64,000 nt of DNA from Flavobacteriales bacterium (GTDB lineage Bacteria; Bacteroidota; Bacteroidia; Flavobacteriales_E; Vicingaceae). Positions 37,590-59,828 of the stretch are shown piece by piece; position 1 is the first letter of the stretch, and every line of letters begins with the position of its first letter. The notes beneath the pieces were generated by a model. It made no database searches. It was not told the origin of the DNA and saw nothing but the letters and a program-made list of their open reading frames with translations. The stretch lies in contig JABAZP010000015.1 of assembly GCA_018608405.1 (NCBI GenBank), positions 1-64,000 on the forward strand. Reading direction: 5' to 3'. A program made the position numbers and the translations under genes.

Positions 37590-39407
37590 ATGAAGAGCTT
37601 TGGGCTATTGTTATCGTTTATGTTTTCCTTCTGTGCTTTGTGGGCACAAAATAAAATACTCGCTGATGATAGTTTACAGCTGACTTATAGGAATATAGGG
37701 AGATATTCGATCAGCCAGAGCGAAGCTTATTTTGACGTTTCCTCGTTCAGAAGATACCGTCCAATTCCCAATCAATTTAGTGCATTTGCAAGGTCGGGGA
37801 ACAATGGGTTACCAAGTCATTCGTATCGCTTTTCTGCACAAGATTGGAATTCAAATTCAATGTTGGGTGGTTTTCAACCGCTATTATTCACGAAAGATTC
37901 CTTGCGATTTTATACATCTTCGCGACCGTTTACGCAGCTTAGTTACTTTAACGGATCAAAGAGTGAACAACAGTTCAGCATTTTTCATACCCAAAATTTA
38001 GGAGAGGGAATGAACTTAGCGTTCAATTATAGAAGAATTACGTCTGAAGGATTTTACATACGTCAATTGGCAACCCACACCCAATTTAATGCCAGTGTAA
38101 AGTTGAAAAGCAGGGATCAGCGCTTTAACACTGATTTGTATTATTTGATTAACTCGATAGAGAATCAAGAAAATGGGGGAGTAGTGCTTTCAGACGATGA
38201 CTCAGAAACTGACAATACAGTGCTGTTGGCTATCAATTTGAGAAATGCTCAGAATCAATCAAAATCACAGGACTGGGGTGCCAAGTCTACTTATGATTTG
38301 ATGTATACCAATGACTCAACCAAAGAGCCATTGCTTTCGATATCACATGAATTTAATTGGCTGAAAGTAAGTCGCAAATACACCGACAACCTGAGTGAAT
38401 CCGCAGACTTTTACGAGACGAGCATTTTTGATGAAATCAATAGTAACGACAGTAGTTTTTCGCAAACCATTTCAAACGAAGTGTTCGCCAATTTTTGGGG
38501 AAATAAATTACAGCTTGGTGCAAGAAATGAGCAGTTGCAATGGTTTCAAAATTACCTTATTCAAGAAGAAACAAGTTCTAATTTCTTGCTTGCTAAGGCC
38601 AATTTAAATTTCGCGGGCGTGCACTTTGCGACTGCTTTTGAAAAAGGCATTTCCGGCTTTCATGAAAACGAGTTGGATTGGAAAATAAGTGCAGCATTTA
38701 ACGATAGTGTGACTTTTCAACCACGATTATATAGCAGAATTAGCAGAAAGCAAAGTGATTTTTTATTGACCAACCAACGAGGTAATAGGAATTACTTTAA
38801 CGCTAACCTGAATACTTCTAATCAGGTTCAAATTGGTGGAGCAGTGAGCCATGAGAAGTATCGTTTTACGGTTGATGTGAATTACAGGTTATTAACCGAT
38901 TATGTTTACTTAGATAGCCTGCAGACTCCTCAGCAAGAAGGAGATCAAATTTCAATTCTACAAGTAAATTTGAGAAAGAATTTTATTTTCTTGAAAAACT
39001 TTAGGTGGAACAATCACTTCCAAATTCAGGCTATATCAAATACTGATGTTGTTCCTCTACCGGCTTTTAGTTCATTTCATTCATTGTTTTACGATAATGA
39101 CTTTTTTAAGAATTCATTGAATTTTCAATTAGGTGCAGATTTTGCATTTATTGGTGAATACGGAGGTTACGCGTATTCCCCTAGTTTGGCACAGTTTTAC
39201 TTACGCCAAGAGAATGCAGCAGCATTGGGTAATATCATCCAATTGGATCTTTTTATGAACTTAAGAATTCACAAAGCTGCTAGAATTTTTGCCAAGCTTG
39301 AGAATATCACCGGTAAACCATTTTCAGAAGAGTCCTATCGCATAGAAAATTACCCTGTGCCTGGAAGGGTATTAAAATTGGGTTTGAGCTGGAGAATGCT
39401 AAATTAA
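37590..39407 (+). CDS. Putative outer-membrane porin (Porin_10-type)
   Basis: The 605-residue protein has a signal peptide (SFGLLLSFMFSFCALWAQ), then DSLQLTYRNIGRYSISQSEA-type text, and a long run of alternating beta-strands rich in Phe/Tyr (FTQLSYFNGSKSEQQFSIFHTQNL, LNLAFNYRRITSEGFY-like). It ends FSEESYRIENYPVPGRVLKLGLSWRM, the pattern of Bacteroidota putative porins, with a final-strand aromatic-rich end. It probably forms a pore or surface barrel; the substrate is unknown. Leaderless promoter upstream. Confidence 0.8.
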   Translation: MKSFGLLLSFMFSFCALWAQNKILADDSLQLTYRNIGRYSISQSEAYFDVSSFRRYRPIPNQFSAFARSGNNGLPSHSYRFSAQDWNSNSMLGGFQPLLFTKDSLRFYTSSRPFTQLSYFNGSKSEQQFSIFHTQNLGEGMNLAFNYRRITSEGFYIRQLATHTQFNASVKLKSRDQRFNTDLYYLINSIENQENGGVVLSDDDSETDNTVLLAINLRNAQNQSKSQDWGAKSTYDLMYTNDSTKEPLLSISHEFNWLKVSRKYTDNLSESADFYETSIFDEINSNDSSFSQTISNEVFANFWGNKLQLGARNEQLQWFQNYLIQEETSSNFLLAKANLNFAGVHFATAFEKGISGFHENELDWKISAAFNDSVTFQPRLYSRISRKQSDFLLTNQRGNRNYFNANLNTSNQVQIGGAVSHEKYRFTVDVNYRLLTDYVYLDSLQTPQQEGDQISILQVNLRKNFIFLKNFRWNNHFQIQAISNTDVVPLPAFSSFHSLFYDNDFFKNSLNFQLGADFAFIGEYGGYAYSPSLAQFYLRQENAAALGNIIQLDLFMNLRIHKAARIFAKLENITGKPFSEESYRIENYPVPGRVLKLGLSWRMLN

Positions 39408-39503
39408 TTGGATCCCAACTCTACCTTACATCTGCATTTGATTGTTCCAAAATTCCCTTTAAGATTGTATGCTTTATTTCTTGTTCAATTCCCAAACTCG
39501 AGA

Positions 39504-39755
39504 TTAATTTAACCCAAGTTTTAATCCAACAAAAACAGTTCTTGGACGAGAAGGGCCATAGATGTATGCTGCATCTCTGTCAATTCCTATATCGAAATCA
39601 GACTGATAGCTGTTAAATGCATTTTGGATTCCACCAAAGAGTTGCACGCTGTAATCGTCGTTCATCTCGAAGGTGTAGGCAACTTTTACATTGTTTTCAA
39701 AGAAAGTGGGAGTGTTCTCAATAATGGTTTGTTCGTTGTCAGGGTCAATTAAATG
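39504..39755 (-). pseudogene. C-terminal fragment of a TonB-dependent receptor
   Basis: Read on the minus strand, the frame ending at the TAA at 39504-39506 encodes about 83 residues beginning around HLIDPDNEQTIIENTPTFFE and including FGGIQNAFNSYQSDFDIGID and the terminal PRTVFVGLKLGLN. These are the last barrel strands of a TonB-dependent receptor. Homology stops at about 39755, where the group II intron sequence begins on the other strand. The rest of the receptor is not found on the far side of the intron, so the locus is rearranged. Confidence 0.78.
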
Positions 39756-40654
39756 AAGCCATAGAACAATGCCGTATCAATTGTATGAAATACAGTTGGG
39801 CAATTGATTTGGACATCAAAGGGTTCTTCGATAACATTGACCATGAACTACTGCTAAAAGCAGTGGAACACTACACCGATAAGAAACACATCTTATTGTA
39901 TGTAAAACGGTGGATAGAGGTTGCTGTAGAGTTACCCGAGGGTACAATCAAACCATCCGAAGGAAAAGGTACCCCACAAGGCGGAGTAATCAGCCCTATG
40001 CTAGCCAATATCTTTATGGACATCGTGTTTGATAAATGGATAGCCAAAGAATATCCTGAAAATGCTATTGAGAGGTATGCAGATGATATTATTGTGCATT
40101 GCAAGAATATCAAAGAAGCATTGCGTTTATTGGAGGCAATAAAGCAACGATTAAAAGACTGTAAATTGGAGTTAAACCGAGAGAAGTCCAAAATCGTTTA
40201 TTGCCGTAGAAACCAAAAACGACAACCGCCTTTTAAAGCGAGGTATCAGGAGTTTGACTTCTTAGGCTTTACCTTTAAACCGAGAATGGAGAAGAAAGGA
40301 GGGAAGATGCGATTAGGCTTTTCTCCTGCCATCAGTCAAAAGAGTATTAGTAGAATAACGAGCGAACTGTTTAAGATGAAGATACACCGTTGGGTGCATT
40401 TGCCTTTTAGCAGAATCGCCTATCAACTCAATCTCAAAATACGCGGATGGCTCAACTATTACGGTGTGTACCGAAAATCTGAAATGCGCAGGTTGTTCAA
40501 GACGTTAAATCAACGATTATACAAGTGGGTTCTCAACAAATACAAACGGTTGAAAAAGAAGCATTGGTATTATTCACTTAAACATTTACAAGGCATAGCC
40601 GAGAGCTACCCGAATATGTTTGAGCATTGGAAATACGAAGGCTTCAGACCGTGA
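39752..40654 (+). pseudogene. ltrA: 5'-truncated group II intron reverse transcriptase/maturase
   Basis: The open frame gives about 300 residues: EAIEQCRINCMKYSWAIDLD, DIKGFFDNIDHELLLKAV (RT3), GTPQGGVISPMLANIF (RT4), ERYADDIIVHC (YADD catalytic core, RT5), FDFLGFTFKPR (RT7) and a C-terminal maturase domain (RWVHLPFSRIAYQLN, IRGWLNYYGVYRKSEMRR, ESYPNMFEHWKYEGFRP). Motifs RT0-RT2, normally ~110-150 residues, are missing, and the nearest ATG (39785) is only a local Met. No HNH endonuclease follows. It can still be a maturase fragment but is not a functional intron protein on its own. Confidence 0.9.
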
Positions 40655-40667
40655 CTTGGATTTTGAA

Positions 40668-40701
40668 GAGCCGTATGAATCGAGAGGTTCACGTACGGTT
40701 C
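40668..40701 (+). ncRNA. Group II intron domain V
   Basis: Exactly 34 nt, starting GAGCCG and ending CGGTTC, with the AGC catalytic triad, a GAGA tetraloop and a two-base bulge on the 3' side of the stem. This is the standard domain V layout. Confidence 0.9.
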
Positions 40702-40743
40702 TGTGAGAGATTTAGGGGTGAGATTCCCCTTTACCTACTCGAC

Positions 40744-40845
40744 TTTATTTTTTTTATTCAGTTTCGTCACTTTATCTTTCCATGAGGCTTCAATCTCACT
40801 TTCCCAATTATCGATTTATTCCAGGCGAAATCTTGTAAATGTATA
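40744..40845. other. Unassigned 100 bp between intron end and glycosyltransferase fragment
   Basis: No complete gene. One minus-strand frame reads SEIEASWKDKVTKLNKKNK over part of it and is then interrupted by a stop, so it may be part of a third disrupted gene; I cannot name it. Confidence 0.3.
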
Positions 40846-41115
40846 TATGTCTTCTCCTCTTGGTGGATGTGGTTTTACGGCGGAAGCTTTTCCGCCCGAG
40901 TCATGGTGGAATATATTCCGTTATTCATGCTGCCTTCGGCGCTATTATTAACACAATTAAAAGGCAGTCAAAGAGCAGTGATTACAACGCTAGTCCTCAT
41001 ATTGGTAATAGTTTGTCAACTCCAGTCGTATCAATATCGCTATTACGAAATTCATTATGGCGACATGACCAAAGAAAAATACTGGGAGGTATTTCTCCTC
41101 CGGAACCGCTTCTAG
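40846..41115 (+). pseudogene. C-terminal fragment of a membrane glycosyltransferase
   Basis: About 88 residues of open frame begin around IYVFSSWWMWFYGGSFSARV and continue VEYIPLFMLPSALLL, a hydrophobic helix VITTLVLILVIVCQ, and EIHYGDMTKEKYWEVFLLRN. This pattern is the end of Bacteroidota ArnT/mannosyltransferase-like polytopic proteins. The preceding ~400 residues are missing. Its TAG stop overlaps the stop of the convergent M1 peptidase (CTAG), so that right-hand neighbourhood is old and the damage came from the left. The related N-terminal stub at 59261 may be the other part of such a gene. Confidence 0.62.
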
Positions 41116-43022
41116 TCTATTTTTTGAAACTTAGCTCTTCGTATATTATTTTGGTGTTCAATTTCTAGCACATAAAATCCATTGCTCAAGCCACTCACAT
41201 CAATGGATTGAACAGCGCGTTGTTCGTGCACTAATTTGCCTTCCACACTGCAGATACGAAGAGTGCTTCCAATTAAACCCTCGGAGTTCTGTAAATACAA
41301 ATAGGCACTTGTTGGGTTCGGGAAAACAGTTAAATCCGTTGCTGCAGGCGTTTCAGAAATGTCAACCGTAAACAACTCTCTCGCAAAAATTCGATCGTCA
41401 GGATTAAAAATAACATTCGTAACGCCTTGTAGGTTGGGGATGTTGAATGCTTGAAAACTTGAAGTTGGTTCAACCACAATAATAGTGTCTATGTTGTTGC
41501 CTGTTAAACGATAGGGTATGGGGATCTCAAAAAACGAAACAGCCGTATCTGAAGGGATTTGCGTTACGTTCAAGGTTAAGTTACTGCCATTCATACTCCA
41601 TGAAGTGTGTATTTGTGGAAAACCTGGACCATAAATCCAATCGTTGAAAAACTCCGTTAAACTCTGGCCATAACTCGCTTCTAAGTGAGCTTTTAAATCT
41701 GGTGTTCTGGCGAAACCAAAAGCTAAGCTCGAATCAGAAATGTAATTCTTTACACCCGCAAAAAAGGCGCTATCTCCAATTTTCCATCGTAACGTATGTA
41801 AGGTAATGGCTCCTTTATTATATACTTGATTATTAAAGAGGCTGTTTACATTGGATGTATCATAGCGATAAACAGAACCATTGGGATAGTTAAAACCCGA
41901 TCGCATGGTTTGATCGAGCCAAACTGGCCAAAATGCAGGATTATGAACTACTCCGAACTCATACGTAAGCCCTGTGATGTACGTCGCAAAAGATTCGTTT
42001 AACCATAAATCACTCCAAGAACCACACGTGATTTTGTTTCCAAACCACTGATGTGCTAATTCATGCGCCTTTAAACCACCACCATAATTTCCCATAAAAC
42101 TCATGGTCTGGTGCTCCATTCCACCTCCAAAAGTAAAGGAAGCGTGGCCGTATTTTTCGTCTTTAAAAGGGTATTCACCGAATAAGGAGTCAAACATGAC
42201 CATAAAATCTTGAACACCAAATAATGACTGTGCGTGCGATTCATTTTGGAACAAGTAGTGCTCCATTAAAATACTATCTCCTTTCACATACAATTGGTCT
42301 TGGTAGGAATCGTATTTACCTGCACCAATCGCTACCAAATAAGCAACGGTAGGATAAGTAGTTTTCCATTTGTATTTCACAGCCGTACCAATGGTATCAA
42401 TTCCTTGTAAAAGTCCAAGCGATGCTACTTTATTGCCTTGGGGAACCGTTACATGAATACTAATGGAGTCTGCTTTATCGGTTAAATCGCTTTTGCAAGG
42501 CCACCAATAACTTGCTCCGTAAGGTTCTGAAAGCGTCCAAATTAAATTTCCATTGGGCACATTCACTCGTGCAAAAGGTGTTCCTACTGGATTGCCGCTG
42601 GGTGTTCCCTTGTAAAATACTTGCACTGAATCGTACGATTGAGAGGGAATAGTGCTTGGAAAGACAAAACCAACTGTATTAAAACCATTGGTTTTTGCTG
42701 TTAAGTAGGTGTTTTGTGCGTAAACTATAGAGTCTACAATTAGTTGATTTCCAAAATCTAAAACAATGCTATCCATTGCAGTTAGTGCCCGAAAATGTAC
42801 GGTAACATCTCCTTGAACAAACCGGACAGCTGGATCCAAATCTAAATCAATTTCATAGTAATGCACATTGTAGTCTGAGGTTTGAGGGGCAGACTTATTG
42901 TTCATTCTGCCAATGGCCGAACGTTTTTCAACGTCAAACAATTTGGTTGGAACGTGCTGAGCCGAAAGAGTGATGCTCAATAAAAAGGAATAGAGGAGTA
43001 GGTATTGTTTCATAATTGACAA
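41112..43022 (-). CDS. M1-family aminopeptidase with T9SS sorting domain
   Basis: A 636-residue secreted zinc peptidase. Signal peptide in the first ~20 residues (LLLYSFLLSITLSAQ). The exopeptidase motif is FGGGMEHQTMSF near residue 300, and the zinc site is LKAHELAHQWFGNK with the distant Glu in WLNESFATYIT. The M1 C-terminal helical domain is absent. Instead the last ~80 residues are a T9SS type A domain (VFPNPTSAYLYLQNSEG to the end). It removes N-terminal amino acids from peptides at the cell surface. It is convergent with the glycosyltransferase fragment and divergent from the sugar transporter gene. Confidence 0.9.
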   Translation of the reverse strand: MSIMKQYLLLYSFLLSITLSAQHVPTKLFDVEKRSAIGRMNNKSAPQTSDYNVHYYEIDLDLDPAVRFVQGDVTVHFRALTAMDSIVLDFGNQLIVDSIVYAQNTYLTAKTNGFNTVGFVFPSTIPSQSYDSVQVFYKGTPSGNPVGTPFARVNVPNGNLIWTLSEPYGASYWWPCKSDLTDKADSISIHVTVPQGNKVASLGLLQGIDTIGTAVKYKWKTTYPTVAYLVAIGAGKYDSYQDQLYVKGDSILMEHYLFQNESHAQSLFGVQDFMVMFDSLFGEYPFKDEKYGHASFTFGGGMEHQTMSFMGNYGGGLKAHELAHQWFGNKITCGSWSDLWLNESFATYITGLTYEFGVVHNPAFWPVWLDQTMRSGFNYPNGSVYRYDTSNVNSLFNNQVYNKGAITLHTLRWKIGDSAFFAGVKNYISDSSLAFGFARTPDLKAHLEASYGQSLTEFFNDWIYGPGFPQIHTSWSMNGSNLTLNVTQIPSDTAVSFFEIPIPYRLTGNNIDTIIVVEPTSSFQAFNIPNLQGVTNVIFNPDDRIFARELFTVDISETPAATDLTVFPNPTSAYLYLQNSEGLIGSTLRICSVEGKLVHEQRAVQSIDVSGLSNGFYVLEIEHQNNIRRAKFQKID

Positions 43023-53522: not shown

Positions 53523-54712
53523 TTACTGCACCACCAACTTCTTCACCTCATTGGTTCCAACTATTTTGAAAAAGTAAATGCCCTTGTTGGCATTGCTCAA
53601 CTCAATTTGCGAAAAGGTTGATTCAATTCTAGCTTCGTGAATGATAGAACCTTTCATGTCGAAAATTTGATAGCTCTTCCCTATCATCTCAGAAGTAGCT
53701 TTTAAATTGAAATTACCGTTGTTGGGGTTGGGGTAGAGTTGAAATGCAGACTCCAAACTTTTTTTTGAATAGAAACAGAGGTGCGGTACACCTTAATGTC
53801 ATCAATGACCATGTCACCTAGTCGAAGTGGGCTATTTTCAATTGGAACTATGTACCCTCTAACGGCTATGCGCACAATTTGGCCAGCAAAATTAGATAAG
53901 TTCACTTTTCTAGTAATCCAAGGCGCTGTATTGCTTTGTTGAACATCTCCTAAAACGAAATCGACTTCATGAGTTACTCCTATTGAATCTATCACTTCAA
54001 AATATAGATCGCCCATCCAATCAGCAGACCCTAATACTGGTCTGCCGTACATGTGAAATTTATATTCTAATTCTATATTGGTTTCTTCAGTAAAATCAAA
54101 ACAACCTAATTCTAATAAACTACTTCTTGTAGCATTGTTTGGATTAAAACCAATAACTCTATCTGCTTCCATGTATAAGAAGTTATTGCCGGATGTAGCA
54201 TTTGCAGGTCCGGTAAATATTGACGGTGTTGCTCCTTTATCTGCACCATAATTACACAAGGTATCGTTTTGAACAGTCCACGCTCGGTCTAAATTTCGTG
54301 TATAAGGAGGTAATATCCGCGGACCTAGGAAAGTACTATCTAAACTATTTGAAGGAATTGAGTCGCTTTCTATTCCGCTTTGGGGTGCATAAAAAGTAAA
54401 AGGTAATTCAACTTCAAATCCTAACCTGTCAATAGGTGCCCATTCATATTCAATTAATGCTTCGTAGGCATCAAATTTTAGATTGTCTGTTAATCCTAAA
54501 CCAACATTCCACTCTTTTTCTCCTTTTCTCGCACCTAAATCGCGTATTAGGTCAATATAGAGCGGTTCAGCGTGTAATACTTTGTCGGGCTCTTTATGGT
54601 CTTCGATTTGTTGGATAAAAATACTGTCTTTTTCAGTCTTTGTAATTTGGACAATTGAATATGTTGAAGATGCCAATAAAATTATTAGCATCAATGTTTT
54701 TTTTGTATACAT
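53523..54712 (-). CDS. Secreted protein whose T9SS domain is out of frame at an A8 tract
   Basis: Frame 1 (54712 down to 53702, 336 residues) starts with a signal peptide (TLMLIILLASSTYSIVQ) and has a beta-rich body with GDLYFEVIDSIGVTHEVDFV-type strands and a VIDDIKVYRTSVSI segment, like a MAM/laminin-type domain. The sorting domain (LESAFQLYPNPNNGNFNLK ... GIYFFKIVGTNEVKKLVVQ, 53523-53756) is in the next frame. The shift falls in the tract of eight A's at 53759-53766 (plus-strand T8): one more A, or a -1 ribosomal slip on A AAA AAA G, gives the clean SIQKKSLESAFQLYPNPN. Unspecified ligand; upstream of the N-glycan operon on the same strand. Confidence 0.8.
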
Positions 54713-55375: not shown

Positions 55376-56362
55376 TCACAACTCAAACTGCTCATTGATC
55401 TGTGCAATTCGAAAGCTTTTTTGTAATACTCTTTTGTATGCGTTACTCAAAGTATCAATAACCGGGTTGGTGTGATTAAAGTGAATAAAAATGACCTTCT
55501 TTTTATTGGCGCTACTCATTCCTTTAAACTTTTCTAAACTTTCAATTATAAAAGGGTGGGGGATTTCCAAAATATCTCGGTTATTGAGCTCCACGCTATC
55601 AAAAAAGGTGGCATCTAAAAAAGCATAGTCAACTTGCTCTATTTGTGCAACAATGTCTTTTTCCCACTTTTCCCATTTGTCAATGTCCGGAATAAATAGC
55701 GCACTTTTATTAGGTCCTTGTATTTTGTAGCCTACTGTTTCAGAAAACTCATCTCTATGAGGCACCAAAAAAGGCGTCACTTTCAATTCACTAGAAAGTT
55801 GGATGGTAGAATCTGCTTTTAATGCGTGAATATCGATGTTATTTCGAACTACCAATTGACTCCAAGGTCCGTTATTTTCTAAAAAAGTTTTCATTTGTGG
55901 CATAGCGTAAACAGGAGTTCGGTTGGCGTCCACAACTTCTTTTCCCAAGTACATTAAACCGGTGTAATGGCCAATGTGTGCATGGGTTAAGAAAATACCG
56001 TCTACCAATTCGTTTTGGCTATTGGGTTCCAATTGAGTCAAGGTTTTAACTTGACTACTGATGTCGGGGGTGGCTTCAAATAAGTATGTTTTATTGGTGG
56101 AAGCATCTACCACACCCAAAGCAACAACCTTTCTATCTGGATCTGGCTTATCAAACAAGTCTTTACAGCATGCTTTTTTACATCCAATTTGGGGTGAGCC
56201 AGCATCTTGAATTGTTCCCAATACCACCAAGGTAGTTTTTGTGAGTGGCGCAGCCATTGCTTTTTCGGTAATCGTTTCAGGTTTTGTCACTTCGCTACAA
56301 GCGGCTAGTAAAAGGGCCGTGGCTGCGCTTAAGCACAGCAGTAAAATATTGTAAAATTTCAT
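55376..56362 (-). CDS. PqqB-like metallo-beta-lactamase-fold lipoprotein
   Basis: From the ATG at 56362 (the TTG three bases upstream is less likely) the protein has 328 residues with a lipoprotein signal (ILLLCLSAATALLLAACSE). The MBL fold follows: LVVLGTIQDAGSPQIGCKKACC, the metal motif FLTHAHIGHYTG (THAHxxH form with Gly in place of Asp), LVPHRDEFSETVGY, and VIFIHFNHTNP. This layout is that of PqqB-like hydrolases, lipid-anchored here. Substrate unknown. The cysteine-rich GCKKACCKD is typical of this group. Confidence 0.82.
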   Translation of the reverse strand: MKFYNILLLCLSAATALLLAACSEVTKPETITEKAMAAPLTKTTLVVLGTIQDAGSPQIGCKKACCKDLFDKPDPDRKVVALGVVDASTNKTYLFEATPDISSQVKTLTQLEPNSQNELVDGIFLTHAHIGHYTGLMYLGKEVVDANRTPVYAMPQMKTFLENNGPWSQLVVRNNIDIHALKADSTIQLSSELKVTPFLVPHRDEFSETVGYKIQGPNKSALFIPDIDKWEKWEKDIVAQIEQVDYAFLDATFFDSVELNNRDILEIPHPFIIESLEKFKGMSSANKKKVIFIHFNHTNPVIDTLSNAYKRVLQKSFRIAQINEQFEL

Positions 56363-56441
56363 CAAACTTCCTTTTTTGAGATTTTCCTCAAAAATAGAAC
56401 AAAGCTGGCAAAACCTAGCGCTGCTTTCTCACAACAAAAAA

Positions 56442-56467
56442 AGCCCGAAGAAGTATTTCTTCGGGCT
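56442..56467 (-). terminator. Terminator after clpB
   Basis: Stem AGCCCGAAGAA / TTCTTCGGGCT (arms 56442-56452 and 56457-56467, loop GTAT). On the minus strand it is followed by a T7 run. It lies 20 bp downstream of the clpB stop codon. Confidence 0.9.
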
Positions 56468-56486
56468 ATCCACTTTGTCGCCTTTT

Positions 56487-59111
56487 TTATGATTTAATGG
56501 CTTGTTGTATTTCCTCTTCCAACGGTTTTCTAAATACTACCGTGCTTTCAAATACATCCATTACTACCACATCTCCTGGAGCAATTTTACTTGCCAATAT
56601 ATCTTTCGACAATTGGTTCAGTACTTCTCGTTGCAGCGCTCTTTTAATTGGTCTAGCTCCAAATTGAGGGTCGTAGCCAATTTCAGAGAGGTAATCAATT
56701 ACTTCATCCGTTTCAGTTAAACTGATGTTGTTCTTCGCTGCCAACTTCTCGATGCCTTTCAACTGTATTTTCACAATTTTTTTCACATCTTCCTTGGTCA
56801 ATGGTGTAAACATAATGGTTTCATCAATCCGGTTTAGAAACTCTGGTCGCAATGTTTTGCGCAACAAGCCAAGAACCTCACCTTTGGTGCTTTCCATAAA
56901 ACTGTCGAGGTTTTTATCTTCTAGGTTTTCAAACCGTTCTTGAATGATTCCAGAACCTAAGTTAGAGGTCATGATGATAATGGTGTTCTTAAAGTTCACC
57001 ACACGACCTTTGTTGTCGGTCAATCTACCATCGTCCAAAACTTGCAGTAAAATGTTAAAGACATCGAGGTGTGCTTTTTCAATTTCATCGAGCAACACAA
57101 CAGAGTAGGGCTTTCTTCGAACTGCTTCTGTTAACTGTCCACCTTCATCATAACCAACGTACCCCGGAGGTGCTCCAATTAATCGAGAAACAGCATGTCG
57201 TTCTTGGTACTCACTCATGTCAATTCTGGTCATGGCGTTTTCATCGTTAAACAAATACTCACTCAACGATTTAGCTAACTCCGTTTTACCAACACCTGTG
57301 GTTCCTAAAAAGATGAAGGATCCGATGGGTTTCTTTTCGTCCTGCAATCCCGCTCGGCTTCTTCGTATGGCGTCAGAAACCGCTTCAATGGCTTCGTTTT
57401 GACCTACCACACGTTTGTGCAATTCATCTTCTAAGTATAGCAATTTTTCGCGCTCACTTTGCAACATTTTTGAAATCGGAATTCCTGTCCATCGGCTTAC
57501 CACGTCAGCAATCTCTTCTGCATCAACTTCCTCTTTAATTAAGGTTGATTTCTCCTTCAGTTCATCCAATTGCGCTTTAAAATTTTCAAGGCTAATCTCA
57601 CTTTCTTTGATTTTACCATATCTAATTTCAGCTACCTTCTCGTAGTTTCCTGATCGTTCAGCTTGTTCTGCTTCAAACTTGTAATTGTCAATCTCTTCTT
57701 TCGCCTTTTGAATGCCGTCTACAATTTCACGTTCTGCCTGCCATTTGGCGCTTAACTCGTTTCGTCTTTCGTTAAGGTTGGCAATTTCCTCAGATAGTAA
57801 TTTCAATTTTGCAGTATCCTTTTCACGTTTAATGGCCTCTCTTTCAATTTCAAGCTGCATTACTTTACGGTCTAGTTCATCTAGTTCTTCTGGCTTGGAG
57901 TTCATTTCCATGCGCAATTTAGAAGCTGCTTCGTCAATCAAGTCAATGGCCTTGTCTGGTAAAAAACGGTCGGTAATATAGCGCTGCGACAATTCAACAG
58001 CGGCTATAATTGCCTCATCTTTAATTTGAACCCTGTGATGTGTTTCGTACTTCTCTTTGATTCCTCTTAAAATAGAAATAGCATCTTCGTTGCTTGGTTC
58101 ATCAATTAAAACCTTTTGGAAACGTCTTTCAAGTGCCTTGTCTTTTTCAAAATACTTTTGGTATTCGTTTAAGGTGGTCGCACCAATGGCTCTTAACTCA
58201 CCTCGCGCTAAAGCAGGTTTTAAAATGTTTGCTGCATCCATAGCACCTTCGCCGCCACCTGCACCAACCAAGGTGTGTATTTCGTCAATGAACAGCACAA
58301 TCTCTCCATCTGCAGAAGTTACCTCCTTAATCACCGATTTTAACCGGTCTTCAAACTCTCCTTTGTATTTAGCACCTGCAATCAGTGCGCCCATATCAAG
58401 CGAATAAATTTGTTTGCTCTTTAAATTGTCTGGCACATCTTCGTTAATTATTCTGTGCGCTAATCCTTCGGCAATGGCGGTTTTACCAACGCCGGGCTCA
58501 CCAATTAATATGGGGTTGTTCTTTGTTCTTCGAGAAAGAATCTGCAAGACTCTTCTAATCTCCTCATCTCGTCCAATAACAGGGTCAAGTTTGTTTTCGG
58601 AGGCCAACTTGTTCAAGTTTTTCGCGTACTTTTCCAAGGAGTTGTAATTGTCTTCAGCAGAGGCTGATGTTACTTTTTCTCCTTTTCTTAATTCTAGAAT
58701 AGCAGCTTTCAAGTCTTTTTTATTCAGTCCGCTGTCTTTTAGCATTTGAGCAACAGCATCAGAGCCATTAAGTAATGCCATTATTAAGTGCTCAATGGAA
58801 ACGTATTCATCTCCAAAAGACTTCAAGAGGCTGTTTGCTTCTTGTAATGTTGCATTTGCAGATTTAGATAAATATTGTTCTCCGCCTTGAACGGTTGGAT
58901 ACCCTTTTAATATGCTGTTTGTTGCTTGTTCAATTATCTCTTTATTTACGCCTAGTTTCTTTAATAAAAAAGGGGTTACGTTTTCGTCTGTATCGAGAAT
59001 GGCCTTTAAGATATGCCCATTCTCAATCGCCTGATGATTCGAACTTGTAGCCAACTGCTGGGCTTGTTGAATCACTTCTTGCGATTTTATGGTATAGTTT
59101 TTAAAATTCAT
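56487..59111 (-). CDS. clpB: ATP-dependent disaggregase ClpB
   Basis: The 874-residue protein has the Clp N-terminal repeat domain (about 1-150), two AAA+ domains with [15 protein letters not shown] (D1, near residue 208) and [15 protein letters not shown] (D2, near residue 610), and the coiled-coil M domain between them (about 410-525, [18 protein letters not shown]). [19 protein letters not shown] is the D2 C-terminal signature. It resolubilises aggregated proteins with DnaK. Single gene with its own terminator; upstream of it a TTAATTTG-type box is visible. Confidence 0.97.
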
Positions 59112-59260: not shown

Positions 59261-59491
59261 ATGAAGACGTTTAGAAGTCACATATATTCCCGATTTTTGT
59301 CGGGTATGAAAAGTAAAGTTGTTTCCATATCCTACGTTTTAATTGCAATTATTTTACTTTTTGTTACAACCAATATTAATTGGGGAAAAGACGATTGGAA
59401 GGGCGCCTTAGAGTCTGATGCGAAAGGCTATTATGCATACTTACATGCAGTTTTTCCCTTCATAAATTGCAAGGTTTTAAATACAATTTAA
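59261..59491 (+). pseudogene. N-terminal stub of a membrane glycosyltransferase
   Basis: 76 residues: a basic start, one transmembrane helix (SISYVLIAIILLFVTTN) and INWGKDDWKGALESDAKGYY followed by AYLHAVF. The D-(A/G)-KGYYAYL(P)AVF pattern is the first lumenal loop of Bacteroidota polytopic mannosyltransferase-like proteins. The frame ends after VLNTI, where a transporter-sized protein should continue. No remaining homology is visible downstream up to 59828. The stub might be the other part of the fragment at 40846-41115. Confidence 0.5.
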
Positions 59492-59828
59492 GACTTATCT
59501 TGCAATTAAAAGAACCTAATCACTCTATTTTATCAACTTAAAATATTAATAAGTAGTCTATTACGATATAAATAAGGAGCGACTAAATAGTCTATTAAAT
59601 TTCTTTTCATGAGTTAGTCCTGGGATTGCCCATAACACATACACATGTGCCATGTGTTATGTTCGCACTATGTCTTTTTTATGCTTCTAAATTAGTTATA
59701 AAATCTATTTTTCATTCAATTTGAGTGACATAACACTTCTTATCCGATGGCTATGCGCATATTATTCGACTAATCTGAACGAGCCATTCTAAAAGTGGCA
59801 TTTTGATAAAAGCGAATCTTCACCTCAA
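59492..59828. other. Intergenic region with one hairpin
   Basis: No gene. The hairpin CATAACACAT / ATGTGTTATG (59631-59640 and 59652-59661, loop 11 nt) is the only clear structure. It lacks a T-run, so it is not a typical terminator. Confidence 0.45.

Follow-up and report, generated by a model that had tools for sequence, protein, structure and literature searches.

The locus is read here, with moderate confidence, as a recent rearrangement scar with multiple breakpoints that carries what is left of a group II intron, a mobile element now dead. The intron would have inserted at a normal site and would then have been reduced by deletions and rearrangement. It is truncated at its 5' end, is present as a single copy in the assembly, and stands between fragments of two genes. 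The other part of one of these genes ends at a truncated insertion sequence (IS) end, and the flanking gene blocks are permuted.

The window, i.e., the whole stretch of 64,000 nucleotides that was analysed, covers the first 64 kb of a contig of 157,928 bp (C37) and contains no Ns. The draft assembly comprises 2.64 Mb in 38 contigs and is estimated to be 93% complete. The locus was compared with five genomes of the same genus (G001 to G005) and with 29 related intron loci obtained from a scan of 84,980 species, one genome each. The following features were assigned.

37590 to 39407, plus strand: intact Porin_10 outer-membrane protein, the left neighbour (Pfam PF14121, 8e-86)
39408 to 39506, no strand: spacer of 99 bp between porin and receptor fragment, no assignment
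39507 to 39755, minus strand: last 83 codons of a TonB-dependent receptor (homology to intact orthologues in G007 and G013)
39753 to 39755, no strand: ATG microhomology of 3 bp at the receptor/intron junction (aligned with the L093 intron and receptor orthologues)
39753 to 40743, plus strand: remnant of a group II intron truncated at its 5' end (DNA 92% identical to the full-length L093/L113 intron)
39756 to 40654, plus strand: reverse transcriptase (RT) motifs 3 to 7 and maturase X domain of the intron-encoded protein (PF00078, PF08388)
40666 to 40743, plus strand: intron domains V and VI, with the terminus ...CTACTCGAC (Rfam RF00029)
40744 to 40839, minus strand: intron 3' flank of about 95 bp, probably the tail of an antisense gene (antisense open frame)
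40840 to 41115, plus strand: C-terminal fragment of a membrane protein, residues 341 to 433 of 442, about 90 codons (protein homology)
41112 to 43022, minus strand: M1 peptidase, first gene of block A, which spans 41.1 to about 53.8 kb (colinear with congeners)
55376 to 59111, minus strand: block B, a 329-aa protein and ClpB (before block A in G002)
59306 to 59454, plus strand: N-terminal fragment of the same membrane protein, about 50 codons (G001 orthologue, DNA and protein)
59455 to 59586, plus strand: truncated IS end with the terminal repeat AAGGAGCGACTAA (IS relative in G006)

All pieces described by the first-pass annotation, made from the sequence alone, were found in the order it gave: the receptor C-terminus on the minus strand, followed on the plus strand by the RT from motif RT3, domains V and VI, and the C-terminus of the membrane protein. 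The stretch of 100 unassigned bases that it placed after the intron was also present, but its length is about 95 bp, with the intron ending at about 40743. Its naming of the membrane protein as a glycosyltransferase was not confirmed, as the intact relative had no Pfam match at E<=0.01; the product is therefore called a membrane protein here.

Content and age of the intron remnant

The retained coding region matched RVT_1 (PF00078; 5.7e-33) and GIIM (PF08388; 8.8e-10), the match beginning just before RT motif 3, and domains V and VI at 40666 to 40743 matched RF00029 with 59.1 bits (E 4.6e-9). The L093 and L113 introns, both from one Flavobacteriaceae MAG (M30B34), are 99.9% identical over about 2043 bp and diverge beyond. 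Since their identity stops there, the intron ends were set at GTGTGTCCTGCG... and ...CTACTCGAC. The 3' end of the window copy is the same as in its relatives. The window copy aligned to about positions 1049 to 2043 of the full-length relative, and about 1050 bp of the 5' end are gone. Because the alignment starts only at about 1049, the missing part extends from domain I as far as the beginning of the open reading frame in domain IV, including RT motifs 0 to 2. With positions 1 to 1048 absent, the copy has no 5' GUGYG end, no domains I to IV and no RT motifs 0 to 2; it retains the ribozyme core of domains V and VI and, of the RT/maturase, only the part from RT3 onward. Without domains I to III and RT motifs 0 to 2, it is capable neither of splicing nor of autonomous movement.

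The reading frame of the intron-encoded protein is open to its own stop, without internal stops. Over the 299 codons compared with L093, 80 differences were detected, of which 13, 6 and 61 fell on codon positions 1, 2 and 3, respectively, resulting in 18 amino-acid changes. The excess at third positions and the open frame indicate a protein under selection and thus a truncation that took place after nearly all of the divergence. The nearest solved proteins in the PDB were group II RTs, with GsI-IIC first, a similarity insufficient to set the class of the intron-encoded protein. The assembly yielded a single intron match, with no second copy and none at contig ends, and no close intron was found among plasmid records.

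Insertion target and 3' flank

In 18 of the 19 intact relatives, TGTTR was present 14 to 16 nt before the first base of the intron, against a background of 4.6% of random 22-nt windows. Many intact relatives carry an antisense open reading frame of 100 to 287 aa whose stop lies within about 30 nt of the intron 3' end. Stems were strong in some 5' flanks only (z of -6.2 for L116, -5.1 for L096 and -4.2 for L113), the mean being just -1.5. Repeats of attC-type motifs were weakly enriched in the intron loci (10 observed, about 6 expected). No integron integrase above the cut-off was detected in 60 genomes; tyrosine recombinases below the cut-off occurred in all 60 and also in all 14 controls and were uninformative. 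The target features of the relatives are read here as attC-like targeting, with moderate support.

The window copy shows target features on its 3' side only; the sequence upstream is receptor coding sequence and contains no TGTTR. Read antisense, the 3' flank of about 95 bp encodes IDNWESEIEASWKDKVTKLNKKNKVE up to a stop located inside the intron terminus; L113, L101 and L107 show the same arrangement. No homologue of this flank was found in the genome or in the relatives. In the simplest reading, the flank is what is left of the 3' exon at the first insertion site, probably the end of a gene in antisense orientation. Because the flank reads in this way and the other half of the receptor is missing, insertion into the receptor or the membrane-protein gene was probably not the origin of the locus. 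The earlier proposal of an intron insertion followed by deletion or recombination therefore holds for the rearrangement, which is visible in synteny, in the split gene and in the permuted blocks, but insertion into either of these genes was not supported.

Other reduced copies were seen among the relatives. A 5'-truncated copy with a different truncation point is present in another genus of the family (G006, L118, the same as L088 18660-19063); an attC-like sequence directly precedes it, and an antisense gene borders it on the 3' side. A related intron in G012 (L168 550-1370, contig C14) consists of positions 1 to 695 and 1952 to 2040 without an RT gene and is probably an ORF-less deletion derivative.

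Broken genes and permuted blocks

The receptor fragment corresponds to about residues 712 to 797 of a TonB receptor of 797 residues, with 55 to 59% identity. Homology to the receptor orthologues reaches the histidine codon at 39753 to 39755. The similarity of the intron to its relatives begins with this very ATG, and receptor and intron thus overlap at the break by these 3 bp only. As the first-pass annotation had noted, the receptor N-terminus does not continue beyond the intron. No close match to the N-terminal residues (about 710) was found elsewhere in the assembly, only paralogues with about 29% identity or less, and no congener has an orthologue of the receptor C-terminus. In G007, G013 and G010, the receptor orthologue and the M1 peptidase share a contig, with about 10 to 22 kb between them, and in G007 the receptor gene precedes putative metal ABC-transporter genes. 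On the left, homology to the contig of the nearest congener ends at the porin stop codon (blastn, G002 C46, to 39407). The 99-bp spacer that follows had no match in the genome or the relatives except a weak one of 37 bp in G057. The porin was rejected as the original neighbour of the receptor, an arrangement found in none of the five congeners.

The membrane-protein piece at 40840 to 41115 shares 65% identity (E 4.8e-37) with residues 341 to 433 of the 442-aa congener protein. The N-terminal piece at 59306 to 59454 has 76% DNA identity to the G001 orthologue up to 59454 and a protein match of E 1.6e-20. The two ends of this gene are thus 18 kb apart in the window, the N-terminal piece lying beside ClpB and the truncated IS end. 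The first-pass annotation had suggested a search for the missing halves of both genes next to a second intron copy; the N-terminal piece of the membrane protein was present, but beside the IS, and the N-terminal half of the receptor was absent.

The membrane-protein gene is whole in G005 (442 aa), where it lies between ClpB and the M1 peptidase. In G002, M1 (from 27827) comes immediately after the ClpB segment (C7:23850-27748). The window has another order, with M1 and the genes downstream of it first (41.1 to 50.3 kb) and ClpB last (55.3 to 59.2 kb). Because the gene is whole and the blocks are adjacent in the congeners, the blocks in the window are permuted, with the breaks within the membrane-protein gene. 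Several breakpoints are seen by congener synteny, and more than one intron event is involved in the breaks. The membrane-protein gene is decaying through an internal deletion at the ancestral position in G001 (L080 7033-7793) and is gone from that position in G002, indicating that it is dispensable in the genus. Near the meeting of the permuted blocks, at 53523 to 54712, lies an apparently frameshifted gene in two overlapping frames with a C-terminus resembling a secretion tail.

The IS end at 59455 to 59586 is 70% identical to an IS of G006 that has both ends and a decayed transposase. Identical copies of its last 52 bp (59535 to 59586) close contig C36 and open contig C30, indicating that the IS is multi-copy and interrupts the assembly at other places. 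From about 59678, the window again matches the congener sequence that lies downstream of the globin gene. Since the breakpoint of the membrane-protein gene runs through this multi-copy IS end, no join of the locus is less secure than the one at 59.5 kb, where a mis-join is possible.

Possible histories and known systems

We infer the order of events and the mechanism of deletion from the alignments described above. First, an endonuclease-less intron of a mostly Bacteroidota lineage would have inserted beside an attC-like stem, in antisense orientation at a gene end. A deletion at the 3-bp microhomology may then have joined the intron interior to the receptor C-terminus, removing the 5' half of the intron, its 5' exon and the N-terminal half of the receptor. 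Finally, a break about 95 bp past the intron 3' end would have brought the C-terminal part of the membrane-protein gene up against the scar, the N-terminal part being cut at the truncated IS end 18 kb away and the blocks left permuted.

Alternatively, the intron may have been truncated on insertion: reverse transcription halted, the end of the cDNA became attached to the receptor, and the intervening sequence was lost. The loss of the 5' part with an intact 3' end, here beside a putative 3' exon, is the expected product of incomplete target-primed reverse transcription, which the first-pass annotation had also invoked. The 5' part has been lost and the 3' end kept in further copies as well (L118 in G006, L119, L121 and G341), and the G006 copy, with its attC-like sequence just upstream of the truncation, resembles such a product. 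Sonbol and Siam (PMC7923331) described an attC cluster with group IIB class E introns truncated at the 5' end, for which they proposed that reverse transcription had been incomplete. In the window, however, the upstream flank is receptor coding sequence and not a TGTTR-type 5' exon, and truncated insertion therefore still needs at least one added deletion. A later microhomology deletion accounts for the 5' break at least as well, and truncation on insertion is regarded as a possible but rather unlikely origin.

An assembly artefact, in which separate loci were joined across a repeat, is improbable, although the assembly is a draft of 38 contigs and the 52 bp of the IS end recur at two other contig ends. 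The earlier suggestion of a misassembly at a repeated intron can largely be set aside because the intron is single-copy and lies at no contig end. The receptor/intron join shares 3 bp only, and the right-hand join is without a repeat. Real damage to the membrane-protein gene is also plausible, as the gene of G001 is decaying as well. Homologous recombination between intron copies is a recognised source of deletions (reviewed in PMC5894124). An origin by such recombination between two copies, with segments shifted and the other copy later lost, would fit a remnant located at a seam, but it is highly improbable here: neither a second copy nor a reciprocal half of the receptor or membrane-protein gene flanked by an intron was found, and the N-terminal piece of the latter adjoins the IS and not an intron.

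Insertion at a normal site followed by deletion and rearrangement is accordingly the reading preferred here. Among intron copies in bacteria, truncated or inactivated ones are the majority (PMC4424553), and the locus is largely an ordinary scar, mainly informative as a timed example. It provides a worked example of mobile-intron death, in which the protein was under selection until shortly before truncation and the remnant marks a rearrangement seam. More speculatively, and with low confidence, the relatives may represent Bacteroidota-centred, IIB-like, endonuclease-less introns that insert at attC-like cassette ends 14 to 16 nt 3' of TGTTR by a rule unlike that of IIC-attC introns, that are often 5'-truncated, and whose fragments, together with IS ends, form rearrangement seams. 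A sharp target rule at attC-like sites, for a widespread lineage with a IIB-type domain V, would enlarge the small set of cassette-linked non-IIC introns.

Among known introns, the window copy is most similar to L093 and L113: what it retains is 92% identical in DNA and 94% in protein, and the 3' end CTACTCGAC is shared. Those introns keep the complete 2043-bp ribozyme and a 464-aa protein, whereas the first 1048 bp are missing from the window copy. Like the introns H.ha.F1 and H.ha.F2 (PMC7923331), it is 5'-truncated, has kept the 3' end with domains V and VI, has lost the N-terminal RT motifs, and is putatively associated with attC-like structures. H.ha.F1 and H.ha.F2 are group IIB class E introns of Halorhodospira halochloris, from another phylum; they stay in a cassette array (an attC cluster), whereas the window copy lies in a rearranged locus with no visible array. 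The likeness to group IIC-attC introns (e.g., S.ma.I2) consists in a putative place beside attC-like stems, an orientation antisense to a gene and the lack of an endonuclease domain. In contrast to these introns, domain V in the window reads GAGC, with an AGC triad and not the CGC catalytic triad of group IIC domain V (PMC7923331), and the relatives insert 14 to 16 nt past TGTTR and not within TTGT/T. FRE652 of Sinorhizobium (PMC5894124) is likewise a fragment of an intron that has persisted close to loci with presumed recombination; it retains the 5' part (domains I to III and some of domain IV), whereas the window copy retains the 3' half.
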